Positions 2,325-58,760 of a DNA stretch of 64,000 nt are shown here, in pieces; position 1 is the stretch's first letter; each line of letters starts with the position of its first letter. The notes beneath the pieces were generated by a model. It was not told where the DNA came from, did no database searches, and saw nothing but the letters and a program-made list of their open reading frames with translations. The DNA lies in contig NZ_CP126271.1 in the NCBI RefSeq assembly GCF_003234655.2, positions 806,001 to 870,000 of the forward strand, given 5' to 3'. The translations under genes were made by a program, and so were the position numbers. The DNA is from Curtobacterium sp. MCLR17_007 (GTDB lineage: Bacteria > Actinomycetota > Actinomycetes > Actinomycetales > Microbacteriaceae).

Positions 2325-3542
2325 ATGGGGTCGGTGACGGGAGCGGGCGCTCCGCGGAGCGCAGCGGGCGCACCGCGTCGGAACACGGCGCGGCTGCTCC
2401 GCCTGGTGCACGAGGAGGGGCCCGTCACCCGCGCCGAACTCACCCGCCGCACGGGCCTGAACCGCTCGACGACGCTGGCGCTCGTCGGTGAGCTGGTCGC
2501 GCTCGGCCTGGTCCACGAGTCCGAGAACCCGGCGCCGGGCGCGGTGGCCCCCACGGTCGGGGTGGGGCGCCCCAGCCCCGTCGTCCGTGCCTCGGCCGAC
2601 GTCGTCGCCGTCGCCGTCACGGTCGAGATCGACGCCGTCACGGTCGCGCTCGTCGGGCTCGACGGCAGCATCCGGCACCGGGTGACCTCGCCGGCCGCAT
2701 CGCGCCCGAGCGCCCCCGAGGCCGTCGCCGCCGTGGCAGCGCTCCTCGACGACCTGGCCGAGCGGATGCGGCCGGTCCGGACGGTCGGCATCGGCGTGTC
2801 CATCCCCGGCACCGTCCGCGTCGAGGACGGCCTGGTCCGGTACGCCCCGCACCTCGGGTGGCGCGACGAGCCGTTCGCGCAGCCCCTCGCCGCCGCGACC
2901 GGCCTCCCGGTGCGCGTGGCGAACGACGCCAACCTGGGCGCCCTCGCCGAGCACCTCTACGGCAGCGGCCGGGGCGTCAGCGACCTCATCTACCTCAACG
3001 GCGGCGCGTCCGGCATCGGCGGCGGGGTGATCAGCGCCGGTCGGCCGCTCAGCGGCGCCGACGGGTACGCCGGCGAGCTCGGACACACGTTCGTCGCCGA
3101 CAACGGGATCCGCTGCCACTGCGGCGCGTTCGGGTGCCTGGAGACCGAGGCCTCACGCGCGGCCCTCGTCGCCGTGACCGGGGTCGCCGCCGACGACCTG
3201 CCTGCCCTCGCCGTCGCGCTCGACACCGGCGGGCCCGCGGTGCAGGCCGTCGTGGACCGCCAGGTCGCGGCGCTCGCCACCGGCCTGCGGAACGCGATCC
3301 ACTCCGTCAACCCCGAGGTCGTCGCGCTCGGGGGGTTCCTCGGCACGCTGCTCGGCCACGTCGGGGACCGCATCGTCACCGCGGTGCGGGCACAGTCGAT
3401 GGCCGCCATGGCCGATCGTGTCCGCATCGTGCCCACCGCCCTCGGTCCCGACGTCCTGCTGCGCGGTGCAGCCGAGATCGGCTTCCGTGACCTGCTCGAC
3501 GACCCAGAGTTCTCCCCGCAACAGGAAGTGACCACCCCATGA
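2325..3542 (+). CDS. ROK family transcriptional repressor
   Basis: A 405-residue ROK (repressor, ORF, kinase) protein of the NagC/XylR type. The N-terminal winged helix (about residues 20-70) includes TRAELTRRTGLNRSTT. The ROK sugar-binding domain carries the zinc motif CHCGAFGC and the glycine-rich GGASGIGGGV. Such proteins repress sugar operons and release DNA on binding the inducing sugar. It starts 4 nt after the isomerase stop and its own stop overlaps the dehydrogenase ATG (ATGA), so it is co-transcribed with the genes it probably regulates. No clear operator is seen inside the window; the operon promoter is presumably upstream of position 1. Confidence 0.88.
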   Translation: MGSVTGAGAPRSAAGAPRRNTARLLRLVHEEGPVTRAELTRRTGLNRSTTLALVGELVALGLVHESENPAPGAVAPTVGVGRPSPVVRASADVVAVAVTVEIDAVTVALVGLDGSIRHRVTSPAASRPSAPEAVAAVAALLDDLAERMRPVRTVGIGVSIPGTVRVEDGLVRYAPHLGWRDEPFAQPLAAATGLPVRVANDANLGALAEHLYGSGRGVSDLIYLNGGASGIGGGVISAGRPLSGADGYAGELGHTFVADNGIRCHCGAFGCLETEASRAALVAVTGVAADDLPALAVALDTGGPAVQAVVDRQVAALATGLRNAIHSVNPEVVALGGFLGTLLGHVGDRIVTAVRAQSMAAMADRVRIVPTALGPDVLLRGAAEIGFRDLLDDPEFSPQQEVTTP

Positions 3543-4588
3543 GCACCACCACCCCGCAGTCCGACACCCAGCGTGTCAGCGTCCTGCTCGGTCAGGACGA
3601 CCTGACCGTCGAGGACCGCCCCGTCCCCGCCGTCGACCCCGGCGACGTGCTCGTCCGTGTCGCCGCCGTCGGCGTGTGCGGCTCGGACGTCCACTACTTC
3701 CGGCACGGCCGCATCGGCGACTTCGTCGTCGAGGAGCCGCTCGTGCTCGGCCACGAGCTGTCCGGCACCGTCGTCGCGGTGGGCGAGGGGGTCGACCCGT
3801 CGCGCGTCGGGGAGCGCGTCGCCATCGAGCCGCAGCGCCCCTGCCACCGCTGCGCGCAGTGCCTGGCCGGCCGCTACAACCTCTGCCCGCACATGCGCTT
3901 CTACGCGACGCCCCCGGTCGACGGGGCCTTCGCCGAGTTCGTGACCATCGAGGCCGAGTTCGCCCACACCCTGCCCGACTCCGTGTCGTTCGAGGCCGGT
4001 GCTCTGCTCGAGCCGCTGTCCGTCGGCATCGCCGCCGTCCGCAAGGCCCGCATCGTCCCCGGTTCGTCGGTGCTCATCGCCGGTGCCGGGCCGATCGGGA
4101 TCATCTGCGCGCAGGCAGCCCGGGCGTTCGGCGCGACCCGCATCGTCATCAGCGACCTGGTCCCCGAGCGGCGTGAGCGTGCCCTGTCCTACGGCGCGAC
4201 CGAGGTCGTCGACCCCACCGCGGTCGACGTCACCACGGACATCGCCCCGGTCGACGCGTTCATCGACGCCAGCGGCGCACCCCGTGCGGTGTCCGACGGG
4301 ATCAAGGCGGTCGGTCCGGCCGGCGCCGCGGTGCTCGTCGGTCTCGGCAACTCCGAGATGACGCTGCCGGTCGAGCACATCCAGAACCTCGAGGTCACCG
4401 TCACCGGCATCTTCCGGTACACCAACACCTGGCCGGTCGCGATCGAGCTCGTCGCGTCGGGGCAGGTCGACCTGGACTCGCTCGTCACCGGGCGCTACGG
4501 CCTCGACGACGTGCGACAGGCCCTCGAGAGCGACACCGACCCCGAGTCGCTCAAGTCCGTCGTGTACCCGGGCGGCGTCCCCGCCTGA
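3539..4588 (+). CDS. Zinc-dependent sorbitol/xylitol-type dehydrogenase
   Basis: A 349-residue medium-chain dehydrogenase of the L-iditol/xylitol group. The catalytic zinc region is [10 protein letters not shown] (Cys near residue 46) with LGHELSG after it. The structural-zinc lobe has four cysteines in [15 protein letters not shown], and the nucleotide fold includes [11 protein letters not shown]. It oxidises a polyol or sugar alcohol to a ketose with NAD+ (family knowledge). The ATG overlaps the ROK stop, making it the last gene of the operon. It is followed by a short tandem repeat and strong hairpins. The polyol specificity cannot be read from sequence alone. Confidence 0.88.
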
Positions 4589-4592
4589 CCCG

Positions 4593-4670
4593 CGCCCCGC
4601 GCGGCATCGCACTCCGCTGCGCGCATCACGCCCCGCGCGGCATCGCACCCCGCTGCGCGCATCGCGCCCC
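4593..4670. repeat. 36-bp direct repeat after the dehydrogenase
   Basis: Two complete 36-bp copies start at 4593 and 4629, each beginning CGCCCCGCGCGGCATCGCA, followed by the first bases of a third at 4665. The third merges into the hairpin at 4656-4693. The whole 4589-4832 gap holds only these repeats and two hairpins. Confidence 0.85.
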
Positions 4671-4693
4671 GTTCCTGCGGGGCGCGATGCGCG
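4656..4693 (+). terminator. 15-bp perfect stem-loop, probable terminator
   Basis: CGCGCATCGCGCCCC (4656-4670) is exactly complementary to 4679-4693, with an 8-nt loop. It lies downstream of the polyol dehydrogenase operon. There is no T tract, which is normal for high-GC actinobacteria. Confidence 0.7.
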
Positions 4694-4832: not shown

Positions 4833-6206
4833 ATGACCGTCGCTCCGCCGCCGCAGCGCACCGATCGTCGCGCCCTCGTGTCCTGGGCGCTGTGGGACTG
4901 GGGTTCCGCGGCCTTCAACGCGGTCGTCACGACCTTCGTCTTCAGCACCTACCTGGCCAGCCGCGCCTTCGTCGACCCCGCCATCGTCGCCGCCGAGGAC
5001 ACCTCGGCCGCGGCGAAGCAGGCGGTCGAGCGCGAACTCGCGCACAACGCGGGCGTGGTCTCGACGGCGCTGACGATCGCCGGGATCGTCGTCGCGCTCG
5101 TCGCGCCCGCGGTGGGCCGGCTCGCCGACTCGTCCGGGCACCGTCGCCGCTCGGTGCTCGTCGCCACGATCGGCGTCGCGCTGTCGATCGGTGCGATGGT
5201 GTTCGTCGCGCCCAGCGAGCCGTTCCTGGTGCTCGGCGCGGCCCTCATCGGCATCGGCACCGTCGCGTACGAGATCGCCTGCGTCGGCTACAACGCCATG
5301 CTCGGACAGGTCGCCACCGGCCAGAAGACCGGCCGCGTGTCCGCGATCGGGTGGGCGGCAGGCTACTTCGGCGGCATCGTGCTGCTGGTCGTGCTGCTGG
5401 TGCTGTGCATCCAGGACTTCGGCGCCGGCGACACGGCGGGGCTGTTGCACCTCCCCGCCACCGTGGCCTCCGGGCAGTGGGACGTGCGCGTTGCGATCGG
5501 CATCGCGGCGGTCTGGCTCGCGGTCAGCTCGATCCCGCTGTTCCTGGTCGTCCCCGAGGCACCCGCGGACCCGACCCGCCGCGGCACCCTGTGGTCGGCC
5601 TACCGCGACCTCGGGCGCGACATCGCCCGGCTGTGGCGCGAGCGCCGGAACGTGCTGTCGTTCCTGGTCGCCAGCGCCGTGTTCTGCGACGGCGTCGGGG
5701 GCGTGTTCACGTTCGGCGGGATCATCGCCGCGCAGGTGTTCGGGTTCAGCGCGTCCCAGGTCATCCTGTTCGCGATCGCCGCCAACATCGTCGCCGGCAT
5801 CGCGACCTTCGCCTCGGGCCGGCTGGACGACCGGTTCGGGTCCCGCATGCTCATCATGGTCTCGCTCGTCGGGCTGGCGGTGTGCGGTGCGGCGGTGTTC
5901 TTCGTCGGGTCGGCCCAGGTCGGCTTCTGGGTGCTGGGGTTGGCGCTGTGCGCGTTCGTCGGCCCCGTGCAGTCCTCGTCGCGGGCCTACCTGAGCCGGC
6001 TGGCGACCCCCGGCCGCGAGGGTGAGCTCTTCGGCCTGTACGCCACCACCGGGCGGGCGGCGTCGTTCATCGCGCCGGCGATGTTCGGGATCGCCGTGAC
6101 CCTCGGGGGCTCCACGCGCTTCGGCATCATCGGGGTCGTGGTGGTGCTCGTCGCGGGGCTGGTGCTGATGGCCTTCGTGCGGGACGAGGGGCGCGCCGCG
6201 CGCTGA
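4833..6206 (+). CDS. MFS transporter, UMF1 (Atg22-like) family
   Basis: A 457-residue protein with about twelve hydrophobic segments. The opening WDWGSAAFNAVVTTF is characteristic of the UMF1/Atg22-like branch of the major facilitator superfamily. The typical MFS loop RLADSSGHRRR follows the third helix and a second such loop, RLDDRFGSR, lies in the C half. Substrates of bacterial UMF1 members are mostly unknown; the yeast relative effluxes vacuolar amino acids. The ATG at 4833 is used because a -10-like TACGGT sits 6 nt before it. The gene stands alone between two non-coding repeat regions. Confidence 0.85.
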   Translation: MTVAPPPQRTDRRALVSWALWDWGSAAFNAVVTTFVFSTYLASRAFVDPAIVAAEDTSAAAKQAVERELAHNAGVVSTALTIAGIVVALVAPAVGRLADSSGHRRRSVLVATIGVALSIGAMVFVAPSEPFLVLGAALIGIGTVAYEIACVGYNAMLGQVATGQKTGRVSAIGWAAGYFGGIVLLVVLLVLCIQDFGAGDTAGLLHLPATVASGQWDVRVAIGIAAVWLAVSSIPLFLVVPEAPADPTRRGTLWSAYRDLGRDIARLWRERRNVLSFLVASAVFCDGVGGVFTFGGIIAAQVFGFSASQVILFAIAANIVAGIATFASGRLDDRFGSRMLIMVSLVGLAVCGAAVFFVGSAQVGFWVLGLALCAFVGPVQSSSRAYLSRLATPGREGELFGLYATTGRAASFIAPAMFGIAVTLGGSTRFGIIGVVVVLVAGLVLMAFVRDEGRAAR

Positions 6207-6274
6207 GGCCGTGGTGGTCGGGCGCTGAGCAGGCGTGGTCGGGCGGCGTGCCGGCGCAGGAATGTGACGGCGGT

Positions 6275-6565
6275 GCGACGTTTCCGCTGTCGTGCGACGT
6301 CGGTGGTGTCGTGCGGGTGGGTGCGTGCCGATGGTGCGACGTTTCCGCTGTCGTGCGACGTCGGTGGTGTCGTTCGGGTGGGTGCGTGCCGATGGTGCGA
6401 CGTTTCCGCTGTCGTTCGACGTCGGTGGTGTCGTGCGGGTGGGCGTGTGCCGATGGTGCGACGTTTCCGCTGTCGTGCGACGTCGGTGGTGTCGTTCGGG
6501 TGGGTGCTTGCCGATCGTGCGCCGTTTCCGCTGTCGTGCGACGTCGGTGGTGTCGTGCGGGTGGG
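6275..6565. repeat. 61-bp tandem array A (five copies)
   Basis: Copies begin at 6275, 6336, 6397, 6458 and 6519, an exact 61-bp period; the last is cut after about 47 bases. Each starts GCGACGTTTCCGCTGTCG, then TGCGACGTCGGTGGTGTCG, then a G-rich tail. Because 61 is not a multiple of three, each copy falls in a different reading frame, which argues against coding. The array fills most of the 446-nt gap between the UMF1 transporter and glmU; the rest (6207-6274 and 6566-6640) shows nothing recognisable. It is related to array B at 42777-43090. Confidence 0.95.
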
Positions 6566-6652: not shown

Positions 6653-8080
6653 ATGACCGACCAGCGGATCGCCGTCGTCGTCCTCGCCGCCGGGCAGGGC
6701 ACGCGCATGAAGTCCACGACCCCGAAGGTGCTGCACCGGATCGCCGGGCTGCCGCTCGTCGCCCACGTGCTGCGCACCGCCGAGTCCCTCGAGCCCGAGC
6801 ACATCGCCGTGGTCGTCCGGCACGAGCGCGAGCGCGTCGCCGCCGAGGTCACCGAGCGCGTGCCGGACGCGATCGTCGTCGACCAGGACGAGGTCCCCGG
6901 CACCGGGCGTGCTGTCGAGGTCGCCGTCCAGGCCCTGCCGGCCGACTTCGACGGGGCCGTCGTCGTGCTCTCGGGGGACGTGCCGCTCGTCGACCCCGCA
7001 TCGCTCCGTCGGCTGGTACAGGTGCACGCCGACGCGGCCAACGCCGTGACGTTCCTCAGTGCGATCGCACCCGACCCCACCGGGCTCGGCCGGATCCTCC
7101 GCGACGACCAGGGCGCCTTCGTGGGCGTCGTCGAGCACAAGGACGCGACCGACGAGCAGCGCACGATCACCGAGGCGAACGCGGGCATCTACGCGTTCGA
7201 CGTCACCCACCTGCGCGCCGTGCTGCCCCAGCTCACGACCGAGAACGTGCAGGGCGAGATGTACATCACCGACGCGCCGTCGCTCATCGCGGCCCGCGGC
7301 GGACGCATCGACGTGCTGCGCTTCGACGACCCGTGGCTGCTCGCCGGCATCAACGACCGCGCACAGCTGGGCGACGCCGCCCGTGTGCTCAACGACCGCA
7401 TCGTCCGCGCGCACCAGCTCGCCGGGGTCACCGTGCAGGACCCCCGGTCGACGTGGATCGACCTGGACGTGACGATCGAGCCCGACGCCGAGATCCTCCC
7501 GGACACGCAGCTCATCGGCGCCACGGCCATCGCCGCCGGTGCCGTCGTCGGACCGGGCACCACGCTCCGCGACACCGAGGTGGGCGCTGGTGCCACCGTG
7601 AACCGCGTCGACGCCACCCTCGCCGTCATCGGGGACGGGGCGTCGGTCGGGCCGTTCGCCTACCTGCGCGCGGGCACCGTGCTCGGCGACGGCGGCAAGA
7701 TCGGCACCTTCGTCGAGACCAAGAACGCCACGATCGGTCGGGGCAGCAAGGTCCCGCACCTGTCGTACATCGGCGACGCCGAGGTCGGCGAGGACTCGAA
7801 CATCGGCGCGAACACGATCACCGCGAACTACGACGGTGTGCACAAGCACCGCACCGAGGTCGGGTCGCACGTCCGTACAGGCTCGCACAACGTGTTCGTC
7901 GCCCCGGTTAGGATTGGGGACGGGGCGTACACCGGTGCAGGTACGACCGTCCGCAAGGACGTGCCGGCCGGGTCGCTCGCGATCAGCTACGCCCCACAGC
8001 GCAACACCGACGACTGGGTCTCGGAACACCGACCCGGCACGCCGGCGGCCGAGGCGGCTCGGCGCGCGCACGGAGCATGA
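6653..8080 (+). CDS. glmU: Bifunctional UDP-GlcNAc pyrophosphorylase / GlcN-1-P acetyltransferase
   Basis: A 475-residue cytoplasmic enzyme making UDP-N-acetylglucosamine for peptidoglycan. The N-terminal uridyltransferase domain begins with VLAAGQGTRMKS (residues 10-21), and the lysine of TTPKVLH follows. The C-terminal acetyltransferase is a left-handed beta helix of hexapeptide repeats, from about residue 270 to the end, with the conserved stretches KIGTFVETKNA and IGANTITANYDG. The ATG at 6653 is chosen because homology starts there; the in-frame extension to 6248 runs through a non-coding tandem array. prs follows 92 nt downstream, the usual actinobacterial order. Confidence 0.97.
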   Translation: MTDQRIAVVVLAAGQGTRMKSTTPKVLHRIAGLPLVAHVLRTAESLEPEHIAVVVRHERERVAAEVTERVPDAIVVDQDEVPGTGRAVEVAVQALPADFDGAVVVLSGDVPLVDPASLRRLVQVHADAANAVTFLSAIAPDPTGLGRILRDDQGAFVGVVEHKDATDEQRTITEANAGIYAFDVTHLRAVLPQLTTENVQGEMYITDAPSLIAARGGRIDVLRFDDPWLLAGINDRAQLGDAARVLNDRIVRAHQLAGVTVQDPRSTWIDLDVTIEPDAEILPDTQLIGATAIAAGAVVGPGTTLRDTEVGAGATVNRVDATLAVIGDGASVGPFAYLRAGTVLGDGGKIGTFVETKNATIGRGSKVPHLSYIGDAEVGEDSNIGANTITANYDGVHKHRTEVGSHVRTGSHNVFVAPVRIGDGAYTGAGTTVRKDVPAGSLAISYAPQRNTDDWVSEHRPGTPAAEAARRAHGA

Positions 8081-39099: not shown

Positions 39100-42000
39100 G
39101 TGACGATCTCGGGCATCATCCCTGCGCTCTCGCGCGCCTCCGCGTTCGATCGCGTCCTGCGCGCCGCTCCTCGTGACGCCGACTTCTCGGTGGTCGACGG
39201 CCTCCGCGTGCCGCTCCTGGCGGCGCTCATGGCCGAGCGCAAGGGCCCGCAGTGCGTCCTCGTGATCACCGCCACGGGGCGCGAGGCCGAGGCCGTCCGA
39301 GGTGCCCTGTCGAGCTACCTGCCCGACACCCAGGTGCTCGAGTTCCCGGCGTGGGAGACCCTGCCCCACGAGCGACTGTCGCCCAGTGCGCAGACCGTCG
39401 GCACCAGGATCGCCACGCTGCGCGCCCTGCAGCGGTGGCAGGACACCGACGCTGCCGATCGCGCCACCACCGTCGTCGTGGCGAGTGTCCGTGCCGCGCT
39501 GCAGCCCATCGCCGACAACCTGACCGAGCTCGCACCGGTCGTGCTGCGCACCGCGTCGCGCGGCAACGACCTCTCCAGCATCGCGGCGCAGCTCGTCGAC
39601 CTGGCGTACGCCCGCGTCGACCTGGTGACCCGCCGGGGCGAGTTCGCCGTCCGCGGTGGCATCCTCGACGTCTTCCCGCCCACGGCCGACCACCCGGTGC
39701 GCGTCGACTTCTTCGGTGACGAGATCGACGGCATCAAGGCGTTCTCCGTCGCCGACCAGCGCTCCACCGACGACGACCTCGGTTCGGTCGAGCTCACGGC
39801 CTCACGCGAGCTCCTGCTCAGCGAGGACGTCCGCCAGCGCGCCCGCGAGATGCTGCACGAGTTCCCGAACCTGTCCCAGATGCTCGCCAAGGTCGCCGAG
39901 GGCATCCCGGTCGAGGGCATGGAGTCCCTCGCGCCGGCACTGGTCCGCAAGCTGGTGCCGATGACGACGTACCTGCCGAGCGACGCGACCATCGCTGTCT
40001 TCTCACCCGAGCGGGTCAGTGGCCGTGCGCACAGCCTGGCTGAGACGAACCAGGAGTTCCTGCAGGCCGCGTGGAGCGCCGCCGTCGCCGGTGCCCAGGC
40101 GCCGATCGACCTCGACGCGGGCAACTTCCTGACGGTGCCGCAGCTCCGTGCCACCCGCGGCGACCGCACCTGGTGGACGATCTCGCCGTTCGACAGCGGG
40201 GCGGACGAACCCCTGAGCGACGCGGATGCCGCCACCGAGGCGGGGGAGTACGTCCGCGTCCGGGCCGATGCGGTCCCGAGCTTCGCCGGCAGTGCCGACG
40301 GGGCGGTCGCACACGTCAAGGCGCTGACCGACGACGGCTGGGCGGTGGTCGTCACCGCCCAGGGGCAGGGGCTCGTCGAGCGCGCCGTGCAGGTCCTCGC
40401 CGATGCCGGGGTCGCCGCCCGGGCCGAGGCCGTCACCGCACCGCCGCAGCCCGGCGTCGCGATCGTCACGACGGCGTCGGTCGAGCACGGCTTCTCGATC
40501 CCCGACCCCCGCATCGCGGTGCTGAGCGAGGCCGAGTTCTACGGCCGCACGGCGCAGCAGGGCGCCCGCACGGTCAAGAAGCTCGCCAGCCGGCGCAAGA
40601 ACGTCGTCGACCCGCTGCAGCTCAAGCCGGGCGACGTGGTCGTGCACGCCACGCACGGCATCGGCAAGTTCGTCGAGCTCGTCTCGCGCGAGGTCTCGAG
40701 CGGCGGGCGCAACGCGGTCAAGACGCAGCGCGAGTACCTGGTGCTCGAGTACGCACCGTCGAAGCGCGGCTACCCGGGCGACAAGCTCTTCGTCCCGACC
40801 GACCAGCTCGACCAGCTCTCCCGCTACGTCGGCGGCGAGTCCCCGAGCCTGTCGAAGATGGGTGGCAGCGACTGGTCCGCGGCGAAGAGCAAGGCGCGCA
40901 AGGCCGTCCGCGACATCGCCGTCGACCTCGTCAAGCTCTACTCGGCGCGCATGGCGTCGAAGGGCCACGCGTTCGGTCCGGACACCCCGTGGCAGCGCGA
41001 GCTCGAAGAGGCGTTCCCGTTCGCCGAGACCGCCGACCAGCTCACCACCATCGACGAGATCAAGCGCGACATGGAGCGCCCGATCCCGATGGACCGGCTG
41101 CTCTCCGGCGACGTCGGCTACGGCAAGACCGAGGTCGCGATCCGCGCTGCCTTCAAGGCCGTGCAGGACGGCAAGCAGGTCGCCATGCTCGTCCCGACCA
41201 CGCTGCTGGTCCGGCAGCACATGGAGACCTTCGCCGAGCGCTTCGCCGGGTTCCCCGTGCACCTCCGCGCGCTCAGCCGGTTCCAGACGGACAAGGAGTC
41301 CAAGGAGACCCTCGCGGGCCTGGCCGACGGCACCGTCGACATCGTCATCGGCACGCACCGGATCCTGTCCCAGGGCGTGCAGTTCAAGGACGTCGGTCTG
41401 GTCATCATCGACGAAGAGCAACGCTTCGGCGTCGAGCACAAGGACCAGCTCAAGAAGCTCAAGACCAACGTCGACGTCCTGGCGATGTCCGCGACGCCGA
41501 TCCCGCGCTCGCTCGAGATGGCGGTGACGGGCATCCGTGAGATGTCCACCCTGGCGACCCCGCCCGAGGACCGCCACCCCATCCTGACCTTCGTCGGCCC
41601 GCAGTCCGACCTGCAGGTCGGCGCGGCGATCCGGCGCGAGATGCTCCGCGAGGGCCAGGTGTTCTACGTGCACAACCGCGTCAAGGACATCCAGTCGGTC
41701 GCCGCGCACCTGGCCGAGATCGTGCCGGACGCCCGCATCGCCGTCGCGCACGGGCAGATGTCCGAGCAGACGCTCGAACAGGTCATGGTCGACTTCTGGG
41801 AGCGCCGCTTCGACGTGCTCGTCTCGACGACCATCATCGAGACCGGGCTCGACATCGCGAACGCGAACACGCTCATCATCGACCGGGCGGACAAGTACGG
41901 GCTGTCGCAGCTGCACCAGCTCCGTGGTCGCGTCGGTCGAGGGCGCGAGCGCGGCTACGCGTACTTCCTGTACGACGCCGACAAGCCCCTGTCCGAGACC

Positions 42001-42696
42001 GCCCAGGACCGCCTCGAGACCATCGCGGCGAACAACGAGCTCGGCGCGGGCATGCAGGTCGCGATGAAGGACCTCGAGATCCGTGGCGCGGGCAACCTGC
42101 TCGGCGGCGAACAGTCCGGGCACATCGCGGGGGTCGGGTTCGACCTGTACCTCCGCATGATCGGCGAGGCCGTGTCGCAGTTCCGCGGGGACGTCGCCGA
42201 GGGGCAGACCGAACTGCGCCTCGAGATCCCCGTCGACGCGCACATCCCCGAGGACTACGTCGAGTCCGAGCGCCTGCGACTCGAGGCGTACCAGAAGCTC
42301 TCGGCGGCATCGGCCCCGACCGCGCAGTCCGACGCGATCGACCTGGTGCTCGACGAGCTGACCGACCGGTACGGCACGCCGCCACAGCCCGTGCAGACCC
42401 TGGTCGAGGTGTCCCGACTCCGTCGCATGGCGCAGCAGGTCGGCCTGTCCGACGTGGTCGTCATGGGCTCGAACCTGCGGGTCGCGGGCAAGGAGCTCGC
42501 CGACTCGTCCCAGGTCCGGCTCAAGCGGATGTTCCCCGGCGCCAGGTGGTTCCCCCAGCAGAACGCGTCGAGCATCCCGATGCCGCGTCCGCACGACCAG
42601 GCCCTGCCCGACGACGCCCTGATCCAGTGGGTCGAGAGCATCCTGACGGCCGTGTACGGCGCGACCACGCCGGCAGCGGCGGCGACGGCCCCGTAG
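39100..42696 (+). CDS. mfd: Transcription-repair coupling factor
   Basis: A 1198-residue SF2 translocase that displaces RNA polymerase stalled at DNA damage and recruits UvrA. Domain order is N-terminal UvrB-like region (about 20-340), RNA polymerase interaction domain with VVHATHGIGKFVELV near residue 515, and helicase motor with Walker A GDVGYGKTEVA near residue 670. The DEEQ box is in IIDEEQRFGVEH, and motif VI lies in LRGRVGRGRERG. A TRCF C-terminal domain ends the protein. Length is normal. GTG 39100 matches the family start. It is followed by a 40-bp palindrome and tandem array B. Confidence 0.98.
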   Translation: MTISGIIPALSRASAFDRVLRAAPRDADFSVVDGLRVPLLAALMAERKGPQCVLVITATGREAEAVRGALSSYLPDTQVLEFPAWETLPHERLSPSAQTVGTRIATLRALQRWQDTDAADRATTVVVASVRAALQPIADNLTELAPVVLRTASRGNDLSSIAAQLVDLAYARVDLVTRRGEFAVRGGILDVFPPTADHPVRVDFFGDEIDGIKAFSVADQRSTDDDLGSVELTASRELLLSEDVRQRAREMLHEFPNLSQMLAKVAEGIPVEGMESLAPALVRKLVPMTTYLPSDATIAVFSPERVSGRAHSLAETNQEFLQAAWSAAVAGAQAPIDLDAGNFLTVPQLRATRGDRTWWTISPFDSGADEPLSDADAATEAGEYVRVRADAVPSFAGSADGAVAHVKALTDDGWAVVVTAQGQGLVERAVQVLADAGVAARAEAVTAPPQPGVAIVTTASVEHGFSIPDPRIAVLSEAEFYGRTAQQGARTVKKLASRRKNVVDPLQLKPGDVVVHATHGIGKFVELVSREVSSGGRNAVKTQREYLVLEYAPSKRGYPGDKLFVPTDQLDQLSRYVGGESPSLSKMGGSDWSAAKSKARKAVRDIAVDLVKLYSARMASKGHAFGPDTPWQRELEEAFPFAETADQLTTIDEIKRDMERPIPMDRLLSGDVGYGKTEVAIRAAFKAVQDGKQVAMLVPTTLLVRQHMETFAERFAGFPVHLRALSRFQTDKESKETLAGLADGTVDIVIGTHRILSQGVQFKDVGLVIIDEEQRFGVEHKDQLKKLKTNVDVLAMSATPIPRSLEMAVTGIREMSTLATPPEDRHPILTFVGPQSDLQVGAAIRREMLREGQVFYVHNRVKDIQSVAAHLAEIVPDARIAVAHGQMSEQTLEQVMVDFWERRFDVLVSTTIIETGLDIANANTLIIDRADKYGLSQLHQLRGRVGRGRERGYAYFLYDADKPLSETAQDRLETIAANNELGAGMQVAMKDLEIRGAGNLLGGEQSGHIAGVGFDLYLRMIGEAVSQFRGDVAEGQTELRLEIPVDAHIPEDYVESERLRLEAYQKLSAASAPTAQSDAIDLVLDELTDRYGTPPQPVQTLVEVSRLRRMAQQVGLSDVVVMGSNLRVAGKELADSSQVRLKRMFPGARWFPQQNASSIPMPRPHDQALPDDALIQWVESILTAVYGATTPAAAATAP

Positions 42697-42776: not shown

Positions 42777-43090
42777 GCGACGATCCCGATGTCGTACGAC
42801 AGCGACGCTGTCGCTCTGCTGGCTGGCTGCCGCTCGCGCGACGATCCCGATGTCGTACGACAGCGACGTTGTCGCTCCGCCGGGCGACAGCCGTGCCCGG
42901 CGACGATCCCGATGTCGTACGACAGCGACGTTGTCGCTCGGCTGGCGGCTGCCGCTCGCGCGACGATCCCGATGTCGTACGACAGCGGGGTTGTCGCTCT
43001 GCCGGGCGGCTGCCGCTCGCGCGACGATCCCGATGTCGTACGACAGCGACGTTGTCGCTCCGCCGGGCGACAGCCGTGCCCGGCGACGAT
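42777..43090. repeat. 61-bp tandem array B (five copies plus stub)
   Basis: Copies begin at 42777, 42838, 42900, 42960 and 43021 (periods 61, 62, 60, 61), with a 9-nt stub from 43083. Each starts GCGACGATCCCGATGTCG. Each contains the perfect palindrome TGTCGTACGACA and, except in copy four, the inverted repeat AGCGAC/GTCGCT around GTT or GCT. The second half of the unit alternates between two versions. The stub runs into the nhaA stop codon at 43091-43093. With the terminator it fills the whole 394-nt gap between convergent mfd and nhaA. Confidence 0.95.
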
Positions 43091-44269
43091 CTACTCGGTC
43101 GCCTCGGCCTCGGAGAGTTCGCGCCGCGCACGGTGGTGCCGCGCCTTGAGACTGACCACGATCGCCGAGGCGACCATCGCGATGCCGGAGCCGATCAGCA
43201 CGGCCAGGACCCCCTCGTCGACGATCTCGGCGTTGCCCGCGAAGGCCAGTTCGTTCATCAGCAGGGACACGGTGAACCCGATGCCGCCGAGCACCCCGAC
43301 GGTGACGATCGACCAGAACGACAGCGACGGACGCCCAGGCCCCCGGAACACCCGCGTCGCGACGGCGCCGAACAGCGTGATCCCGATGACCTTGCCGACG
43401 GGGAGGGCCAGGACGACGGCCCAGAACGTGGGGGAGAGCTCGCCGATGCCGACGGCGGGGATGACCACCGCTGCGGACGCGAACGCGAAGACCGGCAGCA
43501 CGATCGCGTTCGACCACGGCTCGACCCGCTCGTGCAGGGTGTGTCCCGGACGTCGCGGCAGCACGAGCCCGAGGGCGACCCCGGCGATCGTCGCGTGGAC
43601 GCCCGAGTGGTACACGAGCCACCACGTCACGACGCCGAGCACGACCATGCCGGCGATGAGCCAGCCCTGCCCCGATCGACCCGGGCGGAGCATCCGGCCG
43701 AGCAGCCAGAACAGCACGAGCAGGACCGCCGCGCCACCGAGCGCGAGGAAGTCGGTGTCGTGCGCGAACACCACCGCGATGATGACGATCGCGATGAGGT
43801 CGTCGAGCACCGCGAGTGCCAGCAGGAACACCCGCAGCGTGGAGGGGAGCCCGCGGCCGAACATCGCCAGCACCCCGAGCGCGAACGCGATGTCCGTCGC
43901 CGTCGGGATCGGCCACCCGTGCGTGTACTGCGTGCCCGCGGTGACAGCGAGGTAGATGCCGGCGGGTACGACGACACCACCGACCGCGGCGATGGCCGGC
44001 ACGATCGCCGTCTTGGGGTTCGAGAGCTCGCCCGCCACGAGCTCGTGCTTGAGCTCGATCGCGACGAGCAGGAAGAACACCGCGAGCAGCCCGTCGCTGA
44101 TCCAGTGCGCAACGGACAGGTCAAGACCGACAGCACCCCACGGCGCGTGCAGGTCGAGGACGTGTTCGAGTCCGGGGCCGATCGGCGTGTTCGCCAGGAC
44201 GAGGCCGAGGACCGCCGCTGCGAGGAGGGCGATCGCGCTGAAGCGCGGGGAACGGATTGCTGCGAGCAT
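43091..44269 (-). CDS. nhaA: Na+/H+ antiporter NhaA
   Basis: A 392-residue inner-membrane antiporter with about twelve hydrophobic segments. It exchanges protons for Na+ or Li+ in alkaline or saline conditions. The paired aspartates of the ion site (Asp163-Asp164 in E. coli) are seen in LALAVLDDLIAIVI, and TATDIAFALGVLAMFG is the conserved helix IV region. The C-terminal tail is basic then acidic (KARHHRARRELSEAEATE). ATG 44269 is chosen since homology starts at MLAAIRSPRFSAI. It is the only minus-strand gene between mfd and mazG, an insertion in an otherwise conserved order. Confidence 0.95.
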   Translation of the reverse strand: MLAAIRSPRFSAIALLAAAVLGLVLANTPIGPGLEHVLDLHAPWGAVGLDLSVAHWISDGLLAVFFLLVAIELKHELVAGELSNPKTAIVPAIAAVGGVVVPAGIYLAVTAGTQYTHGWPIPTATDIAFALGVLAMFGRGLPSTLRVFLLALAVLDDLIAIVIIAVVFAHDTDFLALGGAAVLLVLFWLLGRMLRPGRSGQGWLIAGMVVLGVVTWWLVYHSGVHATIAGVALGLVLPRRPGHTLHERVEPWSNAIVLPVFAFASAAVVIPAVGIGELSPTFWAVVLALPVGKVIGITLFGAVATRVFRGPGRPSLSFWSIVTVGVLGGIGFTVSLLMNELAFAGNAEIVDEGVLAVLIGSGIAMVASAIVVSLKARHHRARRELSEAEATE

Positions 44270-44338
44270 GGAACTCCGTGAGGGTACGGGAAACGGTCCG
44301 TCGACCAGACTTCCCGACACGCCTCGGTCATCGTATCC

Positions 44339-44344
44339 GATACT
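44339..44344 (+). promoter_or_regulatory. -10-like GATACT of mazG
   Basis: GATACT ends exactly 6 nt before the ATG at 44351. Confidence 0.4.
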
Positions 44345-44350
44345 GATGCG

Positions 44351-44980
44351 ATGACCGTCTCGGACCTGACCGCCGTCGTGGACCGCCTGCTCGACCCGGA
44401 CGGCGGGTGCGTCTGGAACCGCGAGCAGACCCATGCCTCGCTCGCGCGCTACGCCGTCGAGGAGTCCTACGAACTCGTCGACGCGATCGAGGACGGGGAC
44501 GTCGAGGACGTCCGCGAGGAACTCGGTGACGTGCTCTACCAGGTCGTGCTCCACGCCGGGATCGCCGCCCGTGCGGGGGAGTTCGACCTCGACGACGTCG
44601 TCGAGTCCGCCCGCGAGAAGATGGTCCGCCGCCACCCTCACGTCTTCGGCGACGAGCGCGCGGACACCGTCGAGGACGTGGTGCGCGTGTGGCGGGCGGC
44701 GAAGGCAGCCGAGAAGTCCGCGCGCACGAGCGTGTTCGACGGAGTCCCGAGGGCGATGCCCCCGATGGAGCGTGCGGTCAAGCTGCTGGAACGACTGGAG
44801 GAGCGGGGCGACGCCGACGAAGCCGTCGCCGCCGTCGTGGGGCCGGATGGGGCTGACGCCGACTGGGGCTCGGAGATGCTCGGAGCGATCGCGGCGGCGC
44901 GGCGGTCCGGGATCGATCCGGTGGAGAGCCTGCGGGCTGCGGTTCGTCGGCTCGAGGTGGAGGGACGCGCGGGTGACTGA
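44351..44980 (+). CDS. mazG: MazG nucleoside triphosphate pyrophosphohydrolase
   Basis: A 209-residue house-cleaning enzyme that hydrolyses abnormal or excess NTPs to NMP and pyrophosphate. The metal-binding helices are EESYELVDAIEDGD and REELGDVLYQVVLHA, with the E-x-x-E and E-x-x-D pattern of MazG, preceded by CVWNREQTHASL. The length corresponds to one MazG domain plus a divergent C-terminal half, as in mycobacterial homologues. It precedes hisS and eno, the conserved order apart from the hisS insertion. Confidence 0.93.
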   Translation: MTVSDLTAVVDRLLDPDGGCVWNREQTHASLARYAVEESYELVDAIEDGDVEDVREELGDVLYQVVLHAGIAARAGEFDLDDVVESAREKMVRRHPHVFGDERADTVEDVVRVWRAAKAAEKSARTSVFDGVPRAMPPMERAVKLLERLEERGDADEAVAAVVGPDGADADWGSEMLGAIAAARRSGIDPVESLRAAVRRLEVEGRAGD

Positions 44981-50983: not shown

Positions 50984-51057
50984 GCCCCCGTGGCCCAATC
51001 GGTAGAGGCATGCGACTTAAAATCGCCGAGTTGTGGGTTCGAGTCCCACCGGGGGTA
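50984..51057 (+). tRNA. tRNA-Leu (anticodon UAA), short variable loop
   Basis: A 74-nt tRNA. The acceptor stem GCCCCCG pairs with CGGGGGT (first pair G-U). The T arm is GTGGG, TTCGAGT, CCCAC, and the anticodon loop CTTAAAA gives UAA, which reads UUA leucine codons. The variable region is only about five bases, whereas bacterial Leu tRNAs normally have a long extra arm. The anticodon stem has four clear pairs and a mismatched fifth. CCA is not encoded (ACCG follows). UUA codons are very rare in this genome. Confidence 0.85.
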
Positions 51058-51065
51058 CCGAAGAG

Positions 51066-51344
51066 AACCGCGCACAGTGCGACTGGATGCCGTGCGTGCG
51101 GCGCGCGCCGAGCCTCCGGTCGGTCTCGGTGCGGGCTTGGCGACGTGGTGCTGGCTTGTTTCACTGCACGGTCCGGACAAGCTCGCACCGACTGCGAACC
51201 GCGCACGGTGCGACTGGAGGCTGTGCGTGCGGCGCGCGCCGAGCCTCCGGTCGGCCTCGGTGCGGGCTTGGTGACGTGGTGCTGGCTTGTGTCGCTGCAC
51301 GGTCCGGTCAACCTCGCACCGGCTGCGAACCGCGCACGGTGCGC
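51066..51344. repeat. 131-bp direct repeat downstream of the tRNA
   Basis: Two full copies start at 51066 and 51197, each beginning AACCGCGCAC, and a third starts at 51328 but ends within about 17 nt. The copies differ at roughly one base in twelve. Two short CGCGCACGGTGCGCC units follow. A stem forms across the copy boundary (TCGCACCG with CGGTGCGA). The 378-nt gap between tRNA and desaturase has no gene. Confidence 0.92.
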
Positions 51345-56318: not shown

Positions 56319-58760
56319 TCAGGCCCGGGCGCTGTCGGCGTCCGCGGTCCGGACCCACAGCCACGTCCCGAGGGCCGCCGCGACGCACACGCAGGCGATC
56401 AGTGCCAACGCGACGGGGGAGACGTGCGTGCCTCCCGGGCCGGAGTAGACCGCTGCGCCCAGCGCCACACCGACCGTGGCGACGGCCGCGTAGCGGGTCC
56501 GCGAGCGGGACCACAGCGCGCTGCCGGCCGAGCCCGCGAGCGGCAGGAGCGTCGCCACGAGGGAACCGAGGCCGCCGACGCAGAGCGTGATCGCGAACTC
56601 GGAGACGAGCGCGGTCCAGAACCCGGGCCCGGTCGTCACGCTGTGCAGGAGCCAGCCCGTCGCGGCGAGGACCAGCAGCGCGCAGGACCGCCAGGTCGCG
56701 CTCCTGGCGCAGGCGGCGACCCCGGCACCGAGCCGCATCGCACCCGTGTCCACGTCGGTCCGCCCGACCGGGACCAGCAGGACGCCGAGCACCAGGGCGG
56801 GGGACAGGTCGGCCGCGCGGGTGACGGCGCATGCGACGAGGGCGGCGAGGACGAGCCATGGCGACACCCGGAACCCCACGGTGTGGCGGTCGGCACCCGC
56901 AGCCCACCGGGTGGCGATCACGACCGCTGCGGCGAGGACACCTGTCCCCAGCAGGACCGCGATCGCCAGGCGGACGTAGCGGGCCTCGAGCGAGACCCCG
57001 ACGCCGAGCAGCGTCAGCACGGACGCCAGCACCACGGCGATCGACACCGATGCCCACGCGGGCAGGGCATCGTCGCCGCGCCGACGTTCCGACCGAGGGC
57101 GGTTGCGACCGGTGAACGAGCCCAGCCGCAGCGTGACCCGTCCGCGCAGGGTCCGTGCGACGAGACGCGCGGGTCCGGCGACCAGCAGCAGGAACCCGAC
57201 CGCGACGGCGCCCGCGACCGCGAGCGTGTCCCACGAGGCCGCCGCCTGGATCGTCGGGACGGTGCGACCGAACGACGTCGCCACGGACCAGTCGCCGGCC
57301 GGGCCGGACCAGTCCACTCCCGGCCGGCCGCCCGCGGTAGCGCCCCCGGACGCATCGCCGGTGCCGGTGCCGGTGCCGTCCGTGGTCCCGCCGGCCGAGC
57401 TGCCCGGGCCGCCCGACCCGGGCACGGTGCCGGTGGTCGGACCACCCGTGCCGCCGGTCGCGGGCCCGGAGCTGCCGCCCGTCGCGCTCCCGCTGCCCGG
57501 GCTGCCGGACGGCGACACCGTCGAGCCGGGCGTCGTCGCCACGACGTCGACGGTGACCGGCGTCGAGGAGGGGGAGTGGTTGCCCGCGGCGTCGTGCTGC
57601 AGCGCGGTGACGACGTGCGCTCCGACGGTGAGCGGGCCTCCCGACGTCGAGCACGCCCAGGAGCCGTCGGCGCGGACGGTCGCGCCGCACACCGGGGCGC
57701 GGTCGACGTACACGGTCAGCACCGCCCGGGGCTCCCCGGCCCCGCGCACGACCAGGGCCTGCGCCGCGACGCGGTCACCGGTCCGGGGCGACGTGACGGT
57801 CGGGGCATCCGGCGGGGTGCGGTCGAACGTGACGGTCGCCGGGGCGGAGGCTGCGCTGCGGAGGTCGGAGCGGAACCCGTCGGCGGTGCTGGCCGTCGCG
57901 GTCGCCGTCATCGTCACGGTGCCGCTCGGTCGCGGTGCCGCGCCGGTCGACCAGGACACGATCCACCGGCCGTCGCTGCCGACCGCGGCGGTGCGGACGG
58001 CGGACGACCCGGAGACCGAGACGGTGACGGTCGTCCCGACGTCGCCGGTGCCGACGACGGTGCCCGTCGTCGGCTCGCGCGTGCTGATCACCGGCGGGAC
58101 GACGACGTCTGCGGCCGGCGCGTCGGCGGTGCGGCGGGACGCGTCGGAGAGGTCCTGCACGGTGAAGACCTGCTGCGGTCCCGTGGCGACCGGGCCGGAA
58201 CAGGTCCAGGTGCCGTCGCCGTCCGTCGTGGTGGTGCAGACCGACCGACTGGTGACCGCCGGGTCGATCACCCGGACGCGGTGGCCGGGCGTCGCCGTGC
58301 CCTGGAACCGTCCGGTCGCGCTCGTCAGGTCGCCGGGGTCGGCGATGGTCGGGTCGACGGCGGGGGTGCCGGACGGCGGCGGGGTCGGGGTGGGGGAACC
58401 GGACGTCGGCGCCGCCCCGGGGGTCGGTTGCACGTGCAGGTCAGCCTGGGTGTCGCCGGGCGCCGTGGTGGGATCCGGTGCGGGCGTTGCCGCCCGGTCC
58501 TGGTCCTGGGGCTGCGTCGTGTCGGCAGTGGCTGGCGCCGTGTCCGTCGTGCCCCGGGTCGTGTCGGCAGCGGCTGCCGCCGTGTCCGTCGTGCCCCGGG
58601 TCGTGTCGGCAGCGGCTGCCGCCGCCGGGACGACGGCGAGGGCCAGGAGGCCCGTCACCAGCGCCGCAGTCAGCGCACCGACCAGGGACGCACGGGGACG
58701 CCGACCGCGACGGCCGCCCCCGACCGTCGCGGATCCCGAGGACTCCCCACGTGTGCTCAT
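56319..58760 (-). CDS. Ig-like domain membrane protein of unknown function
   Basis: An 813-residue protein. A signal peptide (ALTAALVTGLLALAVVPAAA) is followed by a low-complexity Thr/Asp segment with a 14-residue duplicate (AAAAADTTRGTTDT). Next come an extracellular part with about three Ig-like beta domains (VTSPRTGDRVAAQALVV, FDRTPPDAPT) and a Gly/Ser/Thr/Pro-rich linker. The last ~310 residues hold about nine transmembrane helices. MST at 58760 is used because GGAGGGAG sits just upstream. No enzyme motif is seen. It may be a surface receptor or transporter; I do not recognise the family. Confidence 0.75.
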   Translation of the reverse strand: MSTRGESSGSATVGGGRRGRRPRASLVGALTAALVTGLLALAVVPAAAAAADTTRGTTDTAAAAADTTRGTTDTAPATADTTQPQDQDRAATPAPDPTTAPGDTQADLHVQPTPGAAPTSGSPTPTPPPSGTPAVDPTIADPGDLTSATGRFQGTATPGHRVRVIDPAVTSRSVCTTTTDGDGTWTCSGPVATGPQQVFTVQDLSDASRRTADAPAADVVVPPVISTREPTTGTVVGTGDVGTTVTVSVSGSSAVRTAAVGSDGRWIVSWSTGAAPRPSGTVTMTATATASTADGFRSDLRSAASAPATVTFDRTPPDAPTVTSPRTGDRVAAQALVVRGAGEPRAVLTVYVDRAPVCGATVRADGSWACSTSGGPLTVGAHVVTALQHDAAGNHSPSSTPVTVDVVATTPGSTVSPSGSPGSGSATGGSSGPATGGTGGPTTGTVPGSGGPGSSAGGTTDGTGTGTGDASGGATAGGRPGVDWSGPAGDWSVATSFGRTVPTIQAAASWDTLAVAGAVAVGFLLLVAGPARLVARTLRGRVTLRLGSFTGRNRPRSERRRGDDALPAWASVSIAVVLASVLTLLGVGVSLEARYVRLAIAVLLGTGVLAAAVVIATRWAAGADRHTVGFRVSPWLVLAALVACAVTRAADLSPALVLGVLLVPVGRTDVDTGAMRLGAGVAACARSATWRSCALLVLAATGWLLHSVTTGPGFWTALVSEFAITLCVGGLGSLVATLLPLAGSAGSALWSRSRTRYAAVATVGVALGAAVYSGPGGTHVSPVALALIACVCVAAALGTWLWVRTADADSARA
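58539..58622 (-). repeat. 42-bp in-frame tandem duplicate
   Basis: Two 42-bp copies starting at 58539 and 58581 encode a repeated 14-residue Thr/Asp/Ala segment of the Ig-like protein near its N-terminus. Confidence 0.85.

Follow-up and report, generated by a model that had tools for sequence, protein, structure and literature searches.

The window analysed here is the whole stretch of 64,000 nucleotides from Curtobacterium sp. MCLR17_007, and it contains two tandem arrays, A and B, each in a gap between genes. Array A lies between the gene of an MFS-type transporter and glmU, array B between mfd and nhaA, two genes that converge on it. With the genes called by a simple codon-usage caller and positions given as those of the window, the features are the following.

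4878..6206, + strand: gene 5' of A, MFS-type transporter (gene call; Pfam MFS_1 and ATG22; no match in NCBIfam)
6272..6565, no strand: array A, five 36-bp palindromes at 61 bp (Tandem Repeats Finder, palindrome scan)
6276..6311, no strand: palindrome A1, 2 mismatches to consensus
6312..6336, + strand: linker A1-A2, 25 bp, G-rich on the + strand
6337..6372, no strand: palindrome A2, 2 mismatches to consensus
6398..6433, no strand: palindrome A3, 2 mismatches to consensus
6459..6494, no strand: palindrome A4, 2 mismatches to consensus
6520..6555, no strand: palindrome A5, 3 mismatches to consensus
6653..8080, + strand: glmU, gene 3' of A (gene call; NCBIfam GlmU above cut-off)
39100..42696, + strand: mfd, transcription-repair coupling factor, beside B (NCBIfam TIGR00580 above cut-off; 1,198 aa)
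42777..43091, no strand: array B, five palindromes at steps of 61, 62, 60 and 61 bp (Tandem Repeats Finder, palindrome scan)
42778..42813, no strand: palindrome B1, 0 mismatches
42839..42874, no strand: palindrome B2, 0 mismatches
42901..42936, no strand: palindrome B3, 0 mismatches
42961..42996, no strand: palindrome B4, 0 mismatches
43022..43057, no strand: palindrome B5, 0 mismatches
43091..44635, - strand: nhaA, beside B (Pfam Na_H_antiport_1; NCBIfam TIGR00773 above cut-off)

The tandem repeat is genuine at both sites. Tandem Repeats Finder reports 4.8 copies of period 61 with 94% matches for A, and 5.1 copies of the same period with 86% matches for B. The palindromes of A start at 6276, 6337, 6398, 6459 and 6520, which bears out the exact 61-bp spacing of five copies described in an earlier, sequence-only reading of this DNA, and since 61 cannot be divided by 3, the copies rotate frame, as that reading had also said. 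The identical period that it ascribed to B holds for the period found by the program and not for every step, because the steps are 61, 62, 60 and 61 bp. Its agreement of 28 of the 37 leading bases between the two units was recomputed and stands. A 24-base core common to A and B occurs 15 times in the window at up to three mismatches, against a mean of 0.08 and a maximum of 1 in 100 dinucleotide shuffles of the window. What the earlier reading did not contain is the 36-bp palindrome shared by the two arrays, built of the half-sites CGACR and YGTCG. The consensus drawn from the A/B alignment is CGAC-N8-TGTCGTACGACA-N8-GTCG, in which four half-sites follow one another in alternating orientation, CGACR...YGTCG-NN-CGACR...YGTCG. 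The window also carries other tandem repeats: a 131-bp unit present 2.1 times (51065-51343, 93% matches) and beginning a few bases past a tRNA-Leu(taa) gene (50984-51059); a 42-bp unit present 2.6 times (58516-58624, 97% matches) within a predicted gene of the - strand; and a 36-bp unit present 2.2 times (4591-4671, 95% matches) in the gap of the predicted genes 3539-4588 and 4878-6206.

The palindrome was found at 46 places in the genome (3,795,294 bases in two contigs) at up to three mismatches, a few of the weakest of which may be chance matches, and the reversed control pattern was found at none. Thirty-six of these places form nine arrays of 2-6 copies at steps of 60-62 bp, starting at genome positions 134397, 334971, 373769, 590214, 612398, 812276 (A), 848778 (B), 1754900 and 2474678; the other 10 are one pair at 72 bp (2518034) and 8 singles. 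A perfect single palindrome lies at genome position 2209773. The genome-wide family with further arrays that had been proposed from the window is thus real, and its unit is the palindrome. The 61-bp period, taken at first for the defining feature, loses that role because most other sampled species have 71-73 bp and because single palindromes exist. These arrays are not CRISPR arrays: inside any one of them the palindromes are separated by linkers that nearly duplicate one another, and not by unique spacers. In A the + strand is rich in G in all four linkers, whose pooled GC skew is 0.51, and positive skews of 0.24 to 0.51 characterize the linkers of six arrays (134k, 335k, 374k, 612k, 812k, which is A, and 1755k); those of the 2475k array are G-rich on the - strand (-0.35), and values near zero were obtained at 590k (0.05), in B (-0.05) and in the 72-bp pair at 2518k (0.08). 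This skew could reflect replichore polarity; the GC skew of the genome is too weak to place the origin.

The family extends through the genus. The palindrome was detected at up to one mismatch in 47 of 60 sampled congeneric genomes, at 0-91 places per genome, and the control patterns in none, so that the opposite outcome, no further copies and no relatives with the element, did not occur. A scan of one genome per species returned at least 120 stretches with the palindrome; among 80 of the matches listed, 76 belong to Curtobacterium, 2 to Microbacteriaceae bacterium PS02333, and one each to a Glaciihabitans (L075) and a Gemmatimonadaceae MAG (L079), these last two, the former within a predicted gene, being probably chance matches. 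At up to two mismatches in a sample of 299 genomes of the family, carriers are 6 of the 7 congeneric genomes and 3 of the 292 others, with 1 or 2 places in each of the three. Two genomes of one other genus of the family (G192 with two matches and G130 with one, a perfect palindrome among them) perhaps represent a thin outlier of the element family outside Curtobacterium.

A second subfamily has the same architecture around another core, GCGAC-N8-CGTCGAACGACG-N8-GTCGC, and is found in several species at the mfd/nhaA junction. The pattern CGAC-N8-CGTCGWWCGACG-N8-GTCG, at up to one mismatch, matches in 51 of the 60 genomes and never as control; the counts of the two subfamilies overlap, since this pattern also catches some members of the first. 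In one genome (G037) the second subfamily adheres to a spacing of 71 bp throughout, and a single 71-bp pair joins one member of each subfamily. The viral contigs hold no exact match to the first core and a single one to the second (L290, 5403 bases, positions 4586-4621), and plasmid searches with two queries gave no match, so an element of viral or plasmid nature was set aside. In a literature search that covered few subscription journals and preprints, no paper was recognized by its title or the start of its abstract as dealing with these elements, and among papers with the string GTCGTACGAC none concerned a bacterial repeat by its title.

The usual form of the element in the genus is a pair of palindromes at 71-73 bp, the spacing of 61-62 bp being that of this strain and some others. 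Neighbour distances among the matches listed (120 stretches) fall at 61-62 bp (23), 71-73 bp (103), 82 bp (3) and 92-93 bp (6), with scattered others. When distinct neighbour pairs among the matches listed are pooled, leaving aside pairs containing N, pairs in which both members exceed one mismatch and distances above 130 bp, 231 of 272 are spaced at 60-63 or 71-74 bp, pairs that are not phylogenetically independent since related strains are included; exceptional spacings occur at 52-57, 65, 67, 78-80, 87-90 and 96-127 bp. Single genomes give the same picture. In the complete genome G044, sampled through 35 regions among the matches listed, from a genome with 87 places in all, 37 of 39 distances are 72-73 bp and the rest 67 and 80; all nine distances are 71 bp in G037 (15 regions); and in G052, placed by midpoint rooting outside the bulk of the genus, six of eight are 71-72 bp, the rest being 65 and 83. 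At the mfd/nhaA junction alone the spacing is 61-62, 72, 73 or 82 bp according to the species. The linkers of G044 have a median identity of 0.68, against 0.57 after shuffling; their sequence diverges while the spacing is kept, and length is therefore held more firmly than sequence.

Aligned over 26 pairs at 73 bp, the G044 element is symmetric, sharp-edged and about 133 bp long. It reads GCCGACTCGGAA, the palindrome P, a 37-bp linker with the core GCAACNGTTGC, P again and TTCCGAGTCGGC, with little conservation beyond, and its symmetric closing ends are TTCCGAGTCGG. Conservation also stops about 12 bp outside P when 270 distinct outer flanks are pooled, taken both from this genome and from the matches listed. 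A linker consensus is shared within the 73-bp class and another within the 61-bp class, the latter a distinct GC-rich sequence. In one stretch (L080, about 5565-5755), partial element ends (GTCGACTCGGAACGACGA...) recur between two complete pairs, as if they had been copied repeatedly. With a helical turn of about 10.3 bp, six turns make 62 bp and seven make 72 bp, and exact helical phasing of the pairs is compatible with the spacings and not proven by them: the coherence R stays at 0.74-0.77 whatever the period chosen between 9.8 and 11.2, singling out none, and only 13 of the 29 distances at 75-105 bp lie in 81-84 or 91-94 (p 0.02).

The elements favour the 3' ends of genes. Of 139 arrays or single sites among the matches listed, 67 are convergent, 53 tandem and 4 divergent, 4 overlap a predicted gene and 11 stand at a locus edge. 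When the gaps of these loci that measure 60 bp or more are counted, with L075 and L079 left out, an element is present, among the matches listed, in 66 of 133 convergent, 52 of 284 tandem and 4 of 143 divergent gaps, figures of which only the contrast between gap classes counts because the loci were chosen for holding elements. The convergent, tandem and divergent numbers are 19, 18 and 2 in G044 among the matches listed, 8, 6 and 1 in G037, and 3, 6 and 0, with one overlap, in G052. The expectation that the copies would always be intergenic is almost correct: the four overlapping arrays among the 139 are L075 of another genus, L103, in a tiny low-score call, and L061 and L123, in substantial predicted genes, the L123 match having 2 mismatches. 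So small a number also disposes of coding repeats. According to the codon-usage gene calls, 97 bp separate the end of the final palindrome of A from the start of glmU, and A had been viewed as an element upstream of the glmU promoter. Given the bias to gene 3' ends, A is more plausibly assigned to the 3' side of the transporter gene than to the promoter region of glmU. An element precedes glmU in only 8 of 30 relatives. The flanking proteins show no clear theme, which speaks against the regulon of a single pathway: among 20 scanned, out of 30 flanks in this genome, 5 belong to the MFS transporter family, 4 are without match and the others are diverse.

Positions are only partly shared between species. 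With the general pattern at up to two mismatches, an element is present at mfd/nhaA in 13 of 30 relatives. The eight relatives with one before glmU show steps of 61 bp (G048), 72 bp (G059), 62 bp (G013 and G042), 71 bp (G024, second subfamily), 55 and 71 bp (G014) and 62, 55, 87 and 62 bp (G030), while the eighth is G046, of the same species as this genome and partly masked; G009 has no element in the 400 bp read there. Array B has five copies here and three in both G046 and Curtobacterium sp. Leaf183 (L101), and such strain-variable copy numbers might serve as typing markers whether the elements are protein sites or selfish DNA. The mfd/nhaA gap also holds separate long terminator-type hairpins, retained in the genomes that lack the element; in those genomes the sequence has diverged so far that no exact empty site can be recognized.

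Nine of the 60 genomes (G007, G019, G020, G025, G035, G036, G041, G049 and G050) have neither subfamily at up to one mismatch. Seven of them, all except G035 and G041, fall into a single clade, itself nested within the carriers, in a tree of a single gene (an mfd fragment from 31 genomes, built with FastTree and rooted at midpoint, without printed support values). The general pattern at up to one mismatch gives 0 or 1 match in each of these seven genomes and few in G041 (2), G035 (2), G017 (2), G027 (5), G051 (7) and G040 (10), in contrast to G052 (27), G022 (33) and G015 (44). The simplest reading would be that this clade lost the whole system once and that other lineages lost or thinned out their elements separately. 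The elements are dispensable, since their number varies from 0 to 91 per genome, G041 and G035 outside the clade carry neither subfamily and G017, G027 and G051 only small numbers.

In the model that we consider probable, although by no means firmly so, the element is a double site for a putative dyadic DNA-binding protein acting at gene ends. Such a protein would occupy each P of the usual P-linker-P site, whose centres are 71-73 bp apart, or 61-62 bp here and in some other strains. Two occupied palindromes separated by about six or seven helical turns would lie on one face of the DNA, where they would be bridged or bound cooperatively. The resulting complex would act on DNA architecture, as a boundary or topology site just past the ends of genes, chiefly between convergent genes and not on promoters. 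Arrays A and B are a local, tandemly expanded form of this genus-wide intergenic element. This double-site model is the best fit to the symmetry, the pair held in length, the indifference to linker sequence, the 3'-end placement and the joint loss of the subfamilies, the common absence of both from a nested clade being what the loss of one trans-acting factor serving the two would produce. Against it stand the exceptions in spacing, the only partial conservation of positions and the dispensability of the elements, and symmetric sharp edges with scattered positions would suit a mobile element too. More tentatively, and with less confidence than even chance would give, one could imagine an undescribed chromosome-organising system of Curtobacterium, in which a pair of palindromes at a gene end, separated by about six or seven turns, is bridged by a putative protein that recognizes their sequence. 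The site would tolerate changes of the core and linker changes of one turn, and in one clade the sites would have decayed after the loss of the protein. If a protein reads these sites, an actinobacterium would possess a genus-specific boundary or topology system with tens of paired sites at gene ends, and the clade without sites would be a natural knock-out that should point to that protein.

The alternative that we take most seriously, while thinking it unlikely, is selfish DNA of the MITE or REP type: non-autonomous, spread by copying or by a putative transposase, surviving only where it follows a gene and now functionless, with a spacing that would be the length of the mobile unit. The symmetric, sharp-edged ends, the range of 0-91 copies per genome, the positions partly shared between species and the linker consensus common to each length class would all agree with such an origin. 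On the other side, the RAYT domain (PF01797) was detected in none of the 60 genomes, with a control positive in 5 of 14 genomes; elements at different loci of G044 are at most 88.7% identical, the one pair at 97.7% being a local duplication; and the viral and plasmid searches gave only the match already mentioned. The low identity between G044 elements does not show that they never moved. If selfish, they would constitute a REP-like family that lacks RAYT and obeys a strict rule of length, and would do so in a phylum that the searched main text of a REP survey does not name, the word Actinobacteria being absent from it (PMC3733652).

The other explanations fare worse. The architectural model could take a form, in our opinion rather improbable, in which gyrase acts strongly at the elements and so removes the positive supercoils that arise between convergent genes, about 133 bp being wrapped. 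Gyrase wraps about 130-140 bp, which the length of the dyad element matches, and the bias to convergent and other 3' gaps is what this form would predict. A precedent exists in E. coli, where REPs are described in the survey text as targets of gyrase, whose cleavage at the 3' ends of ORFs may relieve supercoiling (PMC3733652). Yet gyrase, an essential enzyme, is also present in genomes that have lost the elements, and their disappearance from a whole clade would go unexplained. A still poorer candidate, which we hold to be very unlikely, is an RNA element whose transcript hairpins would ensure termination, protection of the 3' end or processing of a small RNA. The placement after genes and the long inverted repeats would suit it, as would the four-base arms, whose complementarity is perfect in 41 of 286 elements among the matches listed against 6 after shuffling (largest 15), and the arm pair 8/27, which exceeds all 1000 shuffles. 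However, in tandem contexts among the matches listed, sense-strand G-T pairs (G-U in RNA) number 74 and their antisense equivalent, A-C, 87; the former being no commoner, there is no visible sign of selection for RNA pairing. Five of the six arm positions lie above the shuffled mean, by 1 to 3.3 standard deviations, and one below it, Rfam covariance models run on 7 sources recognized nothing except a tRNA, and the terminator-type hairpins of mfd/nhaA are separate and kept in genomes without the element. The subset with complementary arms could come from quasi-palindrome correction during replication. Between the two functions first offered for array A, the DNA-binding array is consequently the better supported and the processed small RNA, with no G-U strand bias and no Rfam match, is disfavoured. 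Finally, local replication slippage alone, with the likeness of A and B due to chance, is scarcely credible: it would explain the varying copy number of B, five here against three in the two other strains, and not the 46 genomic places, the 47 relatives of 60 or the empty reversed-pattern controls.

Among known systems, the sites of SlmA or MatP are short palindromes, tens per chromosome, each read by a dyadic protein; in comparison, the Curtobacterium sites are longer, paired at a fixed distance and placed after genes. Like MITEs, the elements are short and non-coding, with symmetric ends and a variable copy number, and their ends TCGGAA/TTCCGA are terminal inverted repeats of the kind that defines a MITE; unlike them, they do not occur as near-identical dispersed copies in G044, and RAYT is missing from the 60 genomes. 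The closest parallel is with REPs and BIMEs, which are likewise palindromic, extragenic and multicopy, often dimers with spacers, downstream of coding regions according to the survey text, which places the GTAG- and CGTC-tagged REPs mostly between convergent and unidirectional genes (PMC3733652). The Curtobacterium element is also a many-copy extragenic palindrome placed mainly between convergent and unidirectional genes, but a one-sided tag, sought in the column counts and the flank profile, was not found: palindrome and flanks are symmetric, with no unpaired GTAG or CGTC on one side. It differs further by its 36-bp palindrome with four half-sites and by the near-invariant spacing of its pairs. 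Because both the tag and the RAYT are lacking, it is not a tagged REP, and the absence of PF01797 from all 60 genomes likewise rejects a GTAG-type REP driven by a RAYT. The likeness to BIMEs lies in the regular assembly of palindrome and linker at a fixed spacing, although the palindromes are not REPs, and the resemblance of the Curtobacterium element to a BIME extends to both its anatomy and its placement.
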